A DNA stretch of 5,504 nucleotides from a bacterium (GTDB lineage: Bacteria; CG2-30-53-67; CG2-30-70-394), in assembly GCA_024278555.1 (NCBI GenBank), contig JAJRSX010000083.1, positions 1-5,504 on the forward strand, in the 5' to 3' direction. Positions 202 through 5,458 of the stretch are shown piece by piece. The number at the start of each line of letters is the position of its first letter. Position 1 is the first letter of the stretch. A model generated the notes under the pieces. It was not told the DNA's origin and did not search any database. It worked only from the letters and a program-made list of their open reading frames with translations. The position numbers were made by a program, and so were the translations under genes.

Positions 202-1842
202 TCACGAGACCTCCTCTGCATAGCCGAAGGCCTCCACAAATTGCGACAAGGTATCCAGCACACCCTCCATCTCACCGCGATAGCTCCGCCACCGACCCAC
301 CGCCTGCCGGTAGATCGGCGAGGCGACACCGCTGTAGCTCGGCGTCCTCACCTCGTGCTCACCCGCCTGCTCGTAGAAGCGCAGGACGCGGTCGTCCCAC
401 GGAAGCCCAACGAACTCCAGCAGCGCACGCGCCCGCCCCTCCGGATCCGCCACGAGATCCTCGTAGCGCAGCTCGAAGAAGGGGTTGGTGATGAAGGAGC
501 GGTAGTGCATCCATAGCTCCATGACCGCCTTGTACAGGCGCGCCGTTCGCTCCAGATCGAGAAAGTTGACATTCGCCTGGTTCAGGTGAAAGGACTGCAT
601 GAAACAGCTCAGGCAGACGTCTCGCGGATCGCGGATCATCACCACCACCGGGGCTCGGGGGAAGAAGCGCAGGAGGTAGCCGAGGTCGATGATGTTGAGG
701 GGCAGCTTGTCCAGAAGCCTTTGCCCCTCACCCACGGGACCCACCATCTCGCCCACCAGCTCCCAGTAACGGCGGCGCACGCGGGTGAGCGCCTCCGGAG
801 CGACGTCACAGAGGTCCCACCCGGTCTCCAGGGGGCGGCCGAGGAGGCTCGGAAGCTCTCCCACCAGGCGGGCGAGAAGGGGTTGCTCGTCGTTCGCCGC
901 CGCCCCGGGATGCGACGCCAGGACCTGCTCCACGAGCGTCGTCCCCGAACGAGAAAAGCCGACCAGGAGCACCGGTGAGTCCACACCGTCATCCGGCTCC
1001 TCCGCCGCCCACCCCTGGGTAGTGTTCGCGTCGAAACAGATGCGGCGGTTGTCGATCACGTGAAAGATGTGGTCAACGTCCACCTTGTCGCGATCCACCG
1101 TCGCCTCCAGGGCCCGGTTCCCCGCCTCGAAGGCCGCGAATGCCTCGCTGTAGCGCCCCATACGATCGAGGACCTTGCCCAGGTCGGCACCCGCCGCCGC
1201 CCGCAGCTGCGGCGAGCTCTCCCCGGCGAGGATCCGCTCCAGCCCCTCCCGGGCCGCCTCCAGGTTCCCCGCCCGCCGGTCGATTCTCGCCAGCAGCAGC
1301 GCCGCCTGGAGGTGGCCGGGGTGGAGCGCCAGGGCCCCCTCCACCTCCACCCGCGCCTCGTCGAGCCGGTGCATCTGCTCGAGTGCCGCGGCGAGCTGCG
1401 CCCGGAGGTGCGCGGAGTCGGGAAAGAGGGCGATCGCCTCCCGCAGGGCCGCCTCGGCCTCGCGAAACCGCGCCAGTTTCAGGAGCGCCTCACCGAGGCC
1501 GTGATGGCAATCCTGGTGGTCCGCCTCCTTGGACAACCCGGCCTGGAAGGCCGCCACCGCCGGCCCGAACTGGAAGAGGTCCATATAGGTCCGGCCGAGG
1601 GCGGCGTCCGCATCCGCAGAGCCCGCATCCATCCCGGCGGCCCGGCGGAGGCTCAGGAGCGCCTCCTGGCGCTCACCCAAGCCGCGCTGGCAGAGGCCGA
1701 GGAGCAGCCACCCCTCCGCGTCCTCGGGCGACTCGGCACAGTGGCGCCGGCACGCGCGCCGGGCCCCCTCGAGGTCGCCCGCCCGAAAGAGGGCGATCGC
1801 CTCTCCCTTCCCGTCTACACCGCCGTTCACCGATCCCTCCAT
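202..1842 (-). CDS. TPR-domain sulfotransferase (Sulfotransfer_3-like), 546 aa
   Basis: Predicted cytoplasmic enzyme transferring a sulfuryl group from PAPS to an acceptor bound by its TPR array. Residues about 11-245 form seven TPR-like units with a regular 34-residue period (starts near 11, 42, 76, 110, 144, 178, 212). Residues about 289-545 are the sulfotransferase domain. The 5'-phosphosulfate loop is GFSRSGTTL (295-303), followed by EQVLASHP. DKLPLN is at 378-383, and the 3'-phosphate motif VVVMIRDPRDVCLSC is at 399-413. RYEDLVADP (459-467) and the C-terminal Y/W-rich helix (RWRSYRGEM) are also typical. Glu319 in the NDEQ segment could be the catalytic base, by analogy with tyrosylprotein sulfotransferases (inference). 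There is no signal peptide or membrane segment. I chose the ATG at 1842 because GAGGGAG lies just upstream and TPR-like sequence begins soon after. A GTG at 1992 would add 50 residues with no recognisable domain. The acceptor is unknown. The gene is divergent from the TPR-GT41 gene and upstream of another TPR gene. Confidence 0.93.
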   Translation of the reverse strand: MEGSVNGGVDGKGEAIALFRAGDLEGARRACRRHCAESPEDAEGWLLLGLCQRGLGERQEALLSLRRAAGMDAGSADADAALGRTYMDLFQFGPAVAAFQAGLSKEADHQDCHHGLGEALLKLARFREAEAALREAIALFPDSAHLRAQLAAALEQMHRLDEARVEVEGALALHPGHLQAALLLARIDRRAGNLEAAREGLERILAGESSPQLRAAAGADLGKVLDRMGRYSEAFAAFEAGNRALEATVDRDKVDVDHIFHVIDNRRICFDANTTQGWAAEEPDDGVDSPVLLVGFSRSGTTLVEQVLASHPGAAANDEQPLLARLVGELPSLLGRPLETGWDLCDVAPEALTRVRRRYWELVGEMVGPVGEGQRLLDKLPLNIIDLGYLLRFFPRAPVVVMIRDPRDVCLSCFMQSFHLNQANVNFLDLERTARLYKAVMELWMHYRSFITNPFFELRYEDLVADPEGRARALLEFVGLPWDDRVLRFYEQAGEHEVRTPSYSGVASPIYRQAVGRWRSYRGEMEGVLDTLSQFVEAFGYAEEVS

Positions 1843-2050
1843 GGCTCCCTCACTTTCTACGAAACGACCACCGACCACACCGAAAAGAGCAACGGCGGGT
1901 CGATCGCGACCGCGCCGTACGATACCGGCCGTGACACCACTCCCTCGCCGCCCTGGCACCGGATCCTCGGCAACCCTATCATCTTTCGTCACCCGGATCC
2001 CATCGACTTAGCGCGGCCGCGCCCTCGCGTACCTCTCTCACACGACCGCC
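1843..2050. other. Divergent intergenic region between the two TPR-enzyme genes
   Basis: These 208 bp separate the starts of the sulfotransferase (minus) and the GT41 gene (plus), so promoters for both should lie here. I found no convincing -35/-10 pair or correctly spaced -24/-12 element on either strand. An imperfect palindrome GGTCGATCGCGACC sits at 1898-1911, and two similar CGGATCC-containing stretches sit near 1962 and 1993. The 3' part is open in frame with the sulfotransferase from a GTG at 1992, so part of it could be coding if that start is used. Confidence 0.5.
1845..1851 (-). promoter_or_regulatory. Ribosome binding site of the sulfotransferase gene
   Basis: The minus strand reads GTGAGGGAGCC directly before the ATG at 1842. 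The GAGG core is about five bases from the start. This purine-rich stretch decides between the 1842 start and the longer GTG start at 1992, which has nothing comparable. Confidence 0.6.
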
Positions 2051-3727
2051 ATGGCCAGGACCTCCCCCCGCCTCCAGCGGCGCAAGCAGCAGGCGCTCCA
2101 GCTCCTGCGCCAGGGGAGCTATCCGGAGGCGGCGAGCCGGCTCACGGCCCTCTGCACCAAGCTCCCACGCGACCCCGACCTGTACGGCGCCCTCGGCCGG
2201 GCATGCACTCACCTCGGCCGTCTCGACGACGCCGTGGCCAGCTACCGCCGCGCGGTGAAGCTCCTCCCGCGCCACTGGAAGCCCCACGCCGACCTCGCCT
2301 GGGCCCTCCATCTGGTGGGTCGCGAGGAGGAGGCCGTGGATCAGGGCCGGGAAGCCGCGCGTATCGAGCCGGACCGCGCCGACCTCTGGGACAACCTCGG
2401 GATCTACCTCTGCGCCCAGGGCCGCATCGACGAGGCCATCGACCACCACCGCAGGGCACTGGAGCGCGATCCGGGGTTCTACCGCGCCCGCTCCAACCTC
2501 CTCCTCACCCTCCATTATCAGAACGAGGTCGACCCGGCGGCGCTCCTCGCCGAGCACCGCACATGGGGCGAGCGCCACACCCTGCCCTCGCCGCACCCTC
2601 CACACCGCAACCGCCCCGACCCCGACCGCCGCCTGCGCGTCGCCTACCTCTCCGCCGACCTCAGGACCCACTCCGTCGCCTACTTCCTGGAGCCCATCCT
2701 CACCCACCACGACCCCGAGGAGATCGAGGTGTGGTGCTACTCCACCCGCCCCGGAGGCGATGCCACCACCGCGCGCCTCCAGGATGGAGGCCACCGCTGG
2801 CGTGGGCTCGCCGGCCAGCCCGCGGAGGCGATCGCCCGCCAGATCCACGCGGACCGCGTCGACATCCTGGTGGAGCTAGGAGGCCACACGAGCAGCGAGA
2901 TCCTCCGGGCGTGCTCCCTCGGCCCCGCCCCGGTGCAGGTAACCTACCTCGGCTACCCCGACACCACGGGGGTGCCCGCCATCGACTATCGGCTCGTCGA
3001 CGGCACCACCGACCCCCCGGGATCGGACCGGTGGGCGACGGAGGAGCTCGTACGCCTCCCAGGCTGCTTCCTCTGCTACCAGCCCTCGCCCGAGGCGCCG
3101 GAGCCGGCGCCGCTGCCGGCAGGACGGAAGGGACATGTTTCCTTCGGCTCCTTCAACAACCTGGCGAAGATCAACGAGGGGGTCATCGCCCTCTGGGCCG
3201 AGGTGGTGCTCGCCGTCCCGGGGGCTCGGCTCCTGGTCAAGAACCCCTCCCTGGACGACCCCGCCACCCGTGACCGCTACGCCCGCCTCTTTCAGGAGCA
3301 CGGCCTCTCCGCACGGCAGGTCGAGCTGCGCGGCCGCCTCGATCGGGTCGCCGACCACCTCGCCCTCTACGGCGAGGTGGACATCGCCCTCGACACCTTC
3401 CCCTACAACGGCACCACCACCACCTGCGAGGCCCTCTGGCAGGGTGTCCCCGTGGTCACCCTCGCGGGCACACCCCACATGGCGCGCGTCGGCGCAAGCC
3501 TCCTGCAAGAAGCCGGCCTGGAGGAGTGGGTGGCGGAGCGCCCGCAGGACTACGTGGCCACGGCGGTCCGCTGGGCCGCCGACCTCGACCGGCTCGCCCA
3601 CCTCCGTGCCACCCTGCGCGAGCGGCTGCGCAACTTCCCCCTCCTCGACGGCGACGACTTCACCCGCCGCCTCGAGGCGACCTACCGCGACCTGTGGCGG
3701 CGGTGGTGCACCGAGACGACGGATTGA
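2051..3727 (+). CDS. TPR-domain GT41 glycosyltransferase (OGT/SPINDLY-like), 558 aa
   Basis: Predicted cytoplasmic O-linked glycosyltransferase of family GT41, relatives of which move GlcNAc or fucose from a nucleotide sugar to Ser/Thr of proteins. Residues about 8-143 contain four 34-residue TPR units. A fifth linker unit (RARSNLLLTLHYQ, 145-157) is characteristic of the SPINDLY group. The catalytic part spans about 194-556. It shows RLRVAYLSADLRTHSVAYFL (194-213), with His207 at the position of the conserved OGT active-site His, and DILVELGGHT (271-280). VQVTYLGYPDTTG (295-307) and FGSFNNLAKIN (365-375) follow, with Lys373 matching the OGT nucleotide-binding lysine. DIALDTFPYNGTTTTCEALW (444-463) binds the donor. 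No signal peptide is visible. The ATG at 2051 is the only start before an in-frame TAG at 2009, although it has no clear Shine-Dalgarno sequence. Donor and acceptor are unknown. The neighbouring TPR-sulfotransferase suggests a shared modification pathway. Confidence 0.94.
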   Translation: MARTSPRLQRRKQQALQLLRQGSYPEAASRLTALCTKLPRDPDLYGALGRACTHLGRLDDAVASYRRAVKLLPRHWKPHADLAWALHLVGREEEAVDQGREAARIEPDRADLWDNLGIYLCAQGRIDEAIDHHRRALERDPGFYRARSNLLLTLHYQNEVDPAALLAEHRTWGERHTLPSPHPPHRNRPDPDRRLRVAYLSADLRTHSVAYFLEPILTHHDPEEIEVWCYSTRPGGDATTARLQDGGHRWRGLAGQPAEAIARQIHADRVDILVELGGHTSSEILRACSLGPAPVQVTYLGYPDTTGVPAIDYRLVDGTTDPPGSDRWATEELVRLPGCFLCYQPSPEAPEPAPLPAGRKGHVSFGSFNNLAKINEGVIALWAEVVLAVPGARLLVKNPSLDDPATRDRYARLFQEHGLSARQVELRGRLDRVADHLALYGEVDIALDTFPYNGTTTTCEALWQGVPVVTLAGTPHMARVGASLLQEAGLEEWVAERPQDYVATAVRWAADLDRLAHLRATLRERLRNFPLLDGDDFTRRLEATYRDLWRRWCTETTD

Positions 3728-4057: not shown

Positions 4058-4618
4058 TTACGCCATGAACTTCCGGCGCAGCCCCACGAGGCCGAGGAGG
4101 CTGGAGCCCACGAGGGCCATGGACATGGGCTCGGGAACGGCAGTGAGGTTGACCGTCCCCGCGAAGCACGGCGAGAAGCCGGTGAACGGGCCCGCGGTCA
4201 TCTTGGTCCCGGGGATGCCGTCGGCGTCGGAGTCCAGGGTGGTGAAGGTGGAGTCGATGCCATTGCCGTTGTCGGTGATGTCGGCAACCACGACCACCGG
4301 GATGCTGGTGGTGGCGCCCCAGTCGAAGGGAGCCTGCGAGGTGTAGGTGCCATCACCGTTGTCGACGAGAGTCGCGTCGTGAGCCGACCACAAGAAGCCG
4401 AAGAAGGGCGTCGGCGAGGTCAGGTTGTTGGTGACGGCGCCGGGCACCATCGTGCCGGTGACCACGGCGGAGCCTCCCACGACCGCGCCGGTCGGGTCGT
4501 ACATGGTGAACGTGCCGCTAAAGGCACCGGTGCCGGTCAGCCCGGCGGTACCCGCCTGCGCGCCCGCCGCCATGCCCATAACGAAGGCGACTGTTGCCAA
4601 ACTCTTGATCCACTTCAT
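4058..4618 (-). CDS. PEP-CTERM sorting-domain protein, 186 aa
   Basis: A secreted protein predicted to be processed by an exosortase (EpsH/XrtA type) and released to, or anchored at, the outer surface. Residues 1-22 are a signal peptide (MKWIKS basic start, hydrophobic core, AQA before the predicted cut). Residues 161-164 are VPEP. A hydrophobic segment (about 165-180) and a basic RRKFMA tail complete the tripartite PEP-CTERM signal. The mature part (about 23-160) is rich in Gly, Thr, Ser and Val and very poor in Lys and Arg. It has Asp/Gly-rich turns (DNGDGTY near 86-92; DSDADGIPG at 129-137) that could bind calcium, and a single Cys at 151. The start is set by the signal peptide and the excellent ribosome binding site. 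The frame stays open 24 codons further upstream, but that stretch hides the signal peptide and is unlikely. The gene is a single unit with its own promoter and terminator. No exosortase gene lies in the window. The specific role is unknown; PEP-CTERM proteins generally accompany exopolysaccharide, biofilm or floc formation. Confidence 0.93.
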   Translation of the reverse strand: MKWIKSLATVAFVMGMAAGAQAGTAGLTGTGAFSGTFTMYDPTGAVVGGSAVVTGTMVPGAVTNNLTSPTPFFGFLWSAHDATLVDNGDGTYTSQAPFDWGATTSIPVVVVADITDNGNGIDSTFTTLDSDADGIPGTKMTAGPFTGFSPCFAGTVNLTAVPEPMSMALVGSSLLGLVGLRRKFMA

Positions 4619-4751: not shown

Positions 4752-4767
4752 AGCAATTCCGATGCCA
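4752..4767 (-). promoter_or_regulatory. Sigma-54 (-24/-12) promoter of the PEP-CTERM gene
   Basis: The minus strand reads TGGCATCGGAATTGCT, matching the RpoN pattern TGGCAY-N5-TTGCW with GG and GC dinucleotides at the correct spacing. The predicted transcription start is near 4741, giving a leader of about 120 bases. PEP-CTERM genes are known to be under RpoN and PrsK/PrsR control in floc-forming Zoogloea. The IHF-like site and upstream dyads support an enhancer-dependent promoter. The transcription start itself is inferred. Confidence 0.72.
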
Positions 4768-4877: not shown

Positions 4878-4892
4878 GTCTCAGGAAGAGAC
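4878..4892. promoter_or_regulatory. Dyad operator copy 1 (promoter-proximal)
   Basis: GTCTCAGGAAGAGAC: perfect GTCTC/GAGAC arms around five bases. One of three copies of the consensus GTCTCA-N3-TGAGAC upstream of the PEP-CTERM promoter, centred about 144 bp upstream of the predicted start. Proposed activator-binding site (inference). Confidence 0.45.
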
Positions 4893-4976
4893 AACATTTT
4901 TTACACACCCGCCAAGTTGGCTGATTCGACGTGAGAGATCCTGCGATAACCGCTTACGGAATAATGGTTTTTCCAA

Positions 4977-4991
4977 TTCTCAAAATGAGAC
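4977..4991. promoter_or_regulatory. Dyad operator copy 2
   Basis: TTCTCAAAATGAGAC: TCTCA-N3-TGAGA with one mismatch in the outer arm relative to GTCTCA-N3-TGAGAC. Its centre is 23 bp, about two helical turns, from copy 3, as expected for paired dimers of one regulator on the same DNA face. Confidence 0.5.
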
Positions 4992-4999
4992 CCCGGACT

Positions 5000-5014
5000 G
5001 TCTCACTCTGAGAT
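5000..5014. promoter_or_regulatory. Dyad operator copy 3
   Basis: GTCTCACTCTGAGAT: TCTCA-N3-TGAGA again, with only the outermost base off. It lies about 266 bp upstream of the predicted start, within the usual range for sigma-54 enhancer sites. It is followed directly by a separate 6-bp hairpin (GGTGGT/ACCACC, 5015-5031). Confidence 0.5.
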
Positions 5015-5194
5015 GGTGGTTTTTCACCACCCTGTGGGCGGCTGCGCCGTCCACAAGAGGCGGCCGCCACGCGCCCGCCAAATACGACGTAACCATTTGT
5101 CGTAACAAGAGGTTATCCCGAGGAGATGGCCCGGCGCGGAGACCGCCCCGCGCACCGCACCCCCTGCCGCCCGGCGCCACGGGCCCGATGAAAT
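5015..5194. other. Non-coding stretch with small inverted repeats
   Basis: No gene is supported here. It contains a hairpin GGTGGT-TTTTC-ACCACC (5015-5031) lacking a T-tract on either side. An inverted repeat TACGAC/GTCGTA (5083-5088 and 5099-5104) encloses GTAACCATTT, a motif resembling the GTTACCATT core of the direct repeats that follow. The rest is very GC-rich. Confidence 0.5.
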
Positions 5195-5247
5195 GGAAAC
5201 CGGAGTTACCATTAAAACCCGCCCAAACGGAAACTGGAGTTACCATT
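5195..5247. repeat. Two direct repeats, GGAAACYGGAGTTACCATT
   Basis: The 19-bp unit occurs at 5195-5213 and 5229-5247 with a single C/T difference, start to start 34 bp. The spacer (TAAAACCCGCCCAAAC) is unlike the unit. The copies look like a dispersed intergenic repeat or remnants of mobile-element ends; no transposase is present. Confidence 0.7.
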
Positions 5248-5289: not shown

Positions 5290-5458
5290 GGAGAACAGCT
5301 CAACGCAAACTCCGGGGTCAGGCTTGCAAACTTGCAAGATCACACAAAAGGCTCTGAAAGCAAACTCCGGGGTCAGGCTTGCAAACTTGCAAGATCACAC
5401 AAAAGGCTCTGAAAGTAGGATCGAAAGAAGACCACGGAGGCGAACAGCTCAACGCAAA
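5278..5458. repeat. 32-bp direct repeats flanking an inserted block
   Basis: Positions 5278-5309 and 5427-5458 match at 29 of 32 bases and share the perfect 17-mer GAACAGCTCAACGCAAA (5293-5309, 5442-5458). The offset is 149 bp. Between them lie two 55-bp tandem copies and a short tail. The arrangement suggests a duplication or insertion within an older periodic repeat. Confidence 0.75.
5305..5414. repeat. Perfect 55-bp tandem duplication with palindromic core
   Basis: Copy one (5305-5359) and copy two (5360-5414) are identical and directly adjacent. Each contains GGGGTCAGG followed by CTTGCAA-AC-TTGCAAG, a 7-bp inverted repeat with a 2-base centre (5323-5338 and 5378-5393). From memory, GGGGTCAGGCTTGCAA resembles REP-like extragenic elements linked to RAYT transposases; a search would be needed to confirm this. 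No transposase is in the window. Confidence 0.85.

Follow-up and report, generated by a model that had tools for sequence, protein, structure and literature searches.

The inverted repeat GTCTCA-N3-TGAGAC, here called D, is very likely the upstream activating sequence of a sigma-54 regulon, as its enrichment, its positions, its conserved spacing and its phasing on the DNA all indicate. This regulon would comprise exported PEP-CTERM proteins, an XrtA-type exopolysaccharide (EPS) operon and other secreted proteins. The fuller explanation, a D regulon with the regulator encoded on contig C33 (L029) as its reader beside PrsR, is in our judgement slightly on the probable side. The window analysed here, a stretch of 5,504 nucleotides, is the whole of contig C52 in a genome of 3.06 Mb and 211 contigs. 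The PrsR of this genome shares 86% identity with that of the MAG Nitrospirae bacterium CG2_30_70_394, and this match, together with the small size of the phylum, suggests that the genome belongs to the lineage that bears the name CG2-30-70-394 from genus to phylum in GTDB (PMC8728215), with Ca. Omubiota as an alternative phylum name (PMC11382960). A scan of the genome collection with PrsR returned two relatives only. The comparison set from the phylum consisted of eight genomes, namely the window's own, its congener G007 and six of a sister family. No relevant literature on the sequence of D was found.

Three copies of D lie in the window at positions 4878 to 4892 (GTCTCAGGAAGAGAC), 4977 to 4991 (TTCTCAAAATGAGAC) and 5000 to 5014 (GTCTCACTCTGAGAT), exactly where an earlier note on this DNA had placed them. 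The note had also given all three the same arms; the dyad pattern stood, but the copies are not exact, as each has one arm mismatch to GTCTCA-N3-TGAGAC (e.g. a right arm AGAGAC in the first and a left arm TTCTCA in the second) and none of the three is perfect. The third copy is spaced 23 bp from the second and 122 bp from the first. A sigma-54 promoter of the form TGGCAT-N5-TTGCT, recognised by consensus, lies on the minus strand (4752 to 4767, TGGCATCGGAATTGCT); the three copies are located upstream of its -24 element at distances of ~125, ~224 and ~247 bp, and the end of the nearest copy is ~110 nt away from that element. These distances agree with the 144-266 bp from the predicted start that had been proposed. 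The predicted target is a gene for a protein of 186 aa (4058 to 4618, minus strand) with the C-terminus VPEPMSMALVGSSLLGLVGLRRKFMA, and a match to TIGR02595 above cut-off for the coding sequence 4618-4058 identifies it as PEP-CTERM, bearing out the PEP-CTERM sigma-54 promoter described earlier. TPR-sulfotransferase and TPR/O-GlcNAc-transferase-like genes stand beside the PEP-CTERM gene at 202-3727 of the window, and contig C83 (L019) has a comparable trio, there accompanied by three related PEP-CTERM genes, hinting at modified surface proteins.

Seen by itself the window is unconvincing, with four matches at three or fewer mismatches against 1.8 expected in a loose scan. This count near expectation and the mismatch in every copy would suit inverted repeats that arose by chance or belong to a repeat element, a highly improbable origin that the genome-wide counts refute for the full set of sites: allowing one mismatch, 30 D sites were found in the window's own genome versus a single one for a reversed-pattern control, and 27 versus 0 in the congener. 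Exact sites numbered 7 and 12, respectively, against no control hits, and none occurred in the six sister-family genomes. Moreover, the centres and flanks of the sites are variable while the sites themselves are conserved in orthologous promoters, which likewise speaks against a repeat. The base preferences of all sites give the consensus YGTCTCA-N3-TGAGACR, and the position-weight model for D was trained on the same sites that it scores. A repeat-like feature of another kind is present at 5306-5415, where a 55-bp unit (CAAACTCCGGGGTCAGGCTTGCAAACTTGCAAGATCACAC...), present as a tandem pair, resembles a dispersed repeat.

The sites are concentrated where a sigma-54 activator would be expected to bind. 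At least 20 of the 30 in the window's genome are located ~80-260 bp upstream of -24/-12 elements, against 0.31 expected from 113 such elements, and 10 of the 30 fall into the upstream windows of 17 PEP-CTERM genes, where 0.1 was expected, both expectations being rough because sites were treated as independent. The dyad is thus over-represented before PEP-CTERM genes and -24/-12 elements, as it should be if the earlier note was right. The PEP-CTERM targets reside on C4, C26, C48 (twice), C52, C56, C83, C91 and C116. Further targets are an XrtA-type EPS sugar transferase on C79 (passing TIGR03025 while staying under the cut-off of TIGR03013), a CXXCH cytochrome on C27, and exported proteins of PKD-domain and lipoprotein-like types. 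One match at C83:8949 (L208 2450) falls within a predicted ORF whose first part reads as a PEP-CTERM-like paralog; this match is probably a chance occurrence. All promoters in this analysis are consensus-based, and the data come from draft genomes of two species.

Conservation was a second expectation of the earlier note, and D is indeed kept at equal distance in orthologous promoters of the congener. Before the EPS sugar transferase, D is found at 166 and 123 bp from the -24 element in both species. The distances in the own genome and the congener are 113 and 113 bp for C81/C20, 79 and 78 bp for C175/C78, 218 and 220 bp for C58/C98, 182 and 182 bp for C116/C112, 238 and 236 bp for C27/C138, and 148 and 148 bp for C48/C118. 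The only strongly conserved blocks in C81/C20 are D and the -24/-12 element, and these two are likewise the standout blocks in C58/C98. For the window gene and its promoter, a search for a one-to-one ortholog in G007 yielded only partial paralogs. Neighbouring D sites are spaced by 22-24, 32-33, 43-45, 99 or 122 bp, corresponding to a period of ~11 bp (R 0.77, 15 pairs, approximate p 1e-4, with some pairs orthologous and hence not independent), as would be seen if dimers were bound on a single DNA face. D thus shows what is typical of sigma-54 upstream activating sequences, i.e. location 80-260 bp upstream, genome-wide enrichment and same-face pairing at a period of 11 bp. An NtrC-family enhancer-binding protein (EBP) would bind as dimers at one to three D sites in helical phase and, by looping to the sigma-54 polymerase at -24/-12, would activate transcription.

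For some D sites, the usual upstream location relative to a -24/-12 element does not apply. One is found 61-64 bp upstream of the C33 kinase-regulator operon in both species, as an island of conservation. Another precedes an XrtA-type EPS export gene (C151/C68; TIGR03027) just ahead of its start and is kept in the congener (L205 near 1995), and a third on C143 (L204 near 1959) is located downstream of a perfect sigma-54 element, ahead of sat (ATP sulfurylase/APS kinase). D may also be active from start-proximal positions. These three conserved sites (C33, C151, C143), which lack upstream sigma-54 geometry, and the presence of another dyad (H) and of the classical PrsR box beside D in some promoters would also fit a protein other than an EBP, i.e. 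a repressor or an architectural co-factor bound at D over promoters whose activators bind elsewhere. We consider this improbable, given that in several promoters (C81/C20) no upstream element other than D is conserved, that its spacing and phasing are typical of EBP sites, and that sigma-54 promoters need an EBP (PMC4641369).

If D is indeed an activating site, its reader has to be sought among the ~26 candidate sigma-54 activators of the genome. The enhancer sites of NorR, GTCA-N3-TGAC, offer a formal parallel, with a three-fold array and a TCA-N3-TGA centre as in D. However, D requires the longer GTCTCA arm and does not have NO genes as targets. In the genome, no protein was found to reach the cut-off of the NorR family (the best candidate, L040, scored 375 versus 476), and NorR was therefore rejected as the reader of D.

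PrsR is the candidate put forward in the earlier note, which had proposed a PrsR-like sigma-54 activator. The sigma-54/PEP-CTERM side of that proposal gained from enrichment and conservation, while PrsR as the reader lost ground, as its classical box differs from D and occupies separate positions. A bona fide PrsR is present (TIGR02915, 580 bits versus a cut-off of 502.6), next to PrsK and exosortase A on C106. Motif 1 of Haft et al. 2006, for which PrsR was proposed as the reader, was described from Proteobacteria only as a 17-nt box that ends in TTTACA, located ~63 nt upstream of the sigma-54 motif with 32-92 nt between the two (PMC1569441). Many upstream regions of PEP-CTERM genes fitted no known box in the same study (PMC1569441). 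Further, DVUA0057, the PrsR-type NtrC-family regulator of Desulfovibrio vulgaris, bound PEP-CTERM promoters in DAP-chip (PMC3333781). The form of the box used here, TGTCGR-N5-YTTACA, is motif 1 as deduced from plasmids of Vibrio alfacsensis and D. vulgaris, where TGTCGATATATTTTACA and TGTCGGGTTTTCCGACA were read, and not from the published logo; TGTAAA-N5-TTTACA was wrong as a rendering of motif 1, since the boxes in these plasmids differ from it.

Much is common to the classical box and D: both are inverted-repeat-like, sometimes repeated, built on a GTC-N9-GAC frame, and found upstream of -24/-12 elements and PEP-CTERM genes in genomes encoding PrsK and PrsR. They differ in sequence, one being a 17-mer ending in TTTACA and the other GTCTCA-N3-TGAGAC, and in location, the box having a mean distance of 63 nt from the promoter motif, counted from the end of the box, and D lying farther away at 80-260 bp. 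Moreover, the two coexist here as separate elements. The window combines a sigma-54 motif, a downstream PEP-CTERM gene, and PrsR and PrsK in the genome with the lack of both a 17-nt TTTACA box and the 32-92 nt spacing, and no classical box scored upstream of its promoter. Likewise, the DVUA0057 regulon (PMC3333781, PMC4641369) resembles that of D in joining sigma-54 PEP-CTERM promoters to a PrsR-type NtrC-family regulator, but its promoters carry boxes of the TGTCGG-N5 type and not D.

In both genomes of the window's genus, the classical box and D share promoters but occupy distinct positions in them, the box mostly 81-118 bp from promoters whose D is distal (183-259 bp); D sites without a box are usually proximal (80-170 bp), a two-class pattern that was spotted after the fact. 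In the sister family, a first scan of PEP-CTERM loci gave few sigma-54 promoters and no box, while an exact search of the genome G001 revealed pairs of classical boxes 76 bp apart, 90-190 bp upstream of PEP-CTERM promoters. On contig C109 of G001 (L278/L280), two boxes with this spacing precede a PEP-CTERM gene directly behind prsR, in a host outside the Proteobacteria.

PrsR itself might read D, either because its preference moved away from the classical 17-bp box or because it reads both, in which case the C33 operon would be one more target. We regard this as possible but rather doubtful. Consistent with it are the complete PrsR/PrsK/exosortase A set, the targets (PEP-CTERM genes, an EPS sugar transferase and a D-bearing export gene), which are those that PrsR controls elsewhere, the differing PrsR recognition helix in the sister family that lacks D, and a D promoter adjoining prsR in the congener. 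Half-site variants of the congener, GTCGCA, are similar to TGTCG, the classical half, and a single protein reading both sequences would explain the shared GTC-N9-GAC frame and the few hybrid sites such as TGTCGGAAATCGAGACG. However, the classical box is retained at separate conserved positions alongside distal D, so that something still reads it, and this weakens PrsR as the reader of D. The contig with prsKR has no D while the C33 operon does. The recognition helix of PrsR in the window's genome, SRPTLHHLL, combines residues of both box-linked PrsRs (TRPTLYHLL in Vibrio, SRVTLHDLI in G001) and thus falls within the range of PrsRs found with the classical box. Judged by this helix, PrsR most likely reads TGTCGR-N5-YTTACA.

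With PrsR on its own box, D would be read by the C33 response regulator (L029) acting beside it, an assignment that we see as evenly balanced. L029 follows an HDOD-GAF-PAS histidine kinase in the operon that carries D. Its identity with the congener's version reaches 93%, the highest value of all EBPs compared, the recognition helix is unchanged, and no reciprocal ortholog of L029 was detected in G005, the single D-free genome of the sister family that was fully compared. This restriction to two species discriminates little, because about a dozen other EBPs are distributed in the same way.

D is not the only dyad in these control regions. Directly beside the third copy of D lies dyad H (5015 to 5031, GGTGGTTTTTCACCACC, GGTGGT-N5-ACCACC), which recurs beside D at PEP-CTERM promoters on C48, C26, C83 and C116 and, in the congener, on C118, C112 and C99; only the strict pattern is notable, since a looser form is common elsewhere. 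Another dyad, G, is represented at 5194 to 5211 (TGGAAACCGGAGTTACCA, one mismatch from TGGAAA-N6-TTTCCA) and, 34 bp farther on, at 5228 to 5245 (CGGAAACTGGAGTTACCA). This pair is more than 420 bp away from the PEP-CTERM gene of the window and may serve it or a gene past the end of the contig; pairs with equal 34-bp spacing are found ahead of PEP-CTERM promoters on both C84 and C125. One of these pairs lies ~250 bp from the start of a REC-less, single-domain EBP (L049, C84:10020-11097), which probably reads it.

PEP-CTERM/exosortase systems are common. To our knowledge, what has been learned of their regulation comes almost entirely from predictions in Proteobacteria and from two experimental studies, and we are aware of no cultures of the phylum to which the window belongs. 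As a tentative proposal, its PEP-CTERM proteins might be chosen by separate sigma-54 activators with dyads of their own (D, possibly with the C33 regulator, the classical box with PrsR, and TGGAAA-N6-TTTCCA, probably with L049), which promoters mix in a fixed order with D distal and the PrsR box proximal. If true, this would amount to a combinatorial code for exported PEP-CTERM proteins that, as far as we know, has not been described for exosortase systems. With a defined operator (~20 promoters per species, two species) and named candidate regulators, the question of the reader becomes testable in vitro.
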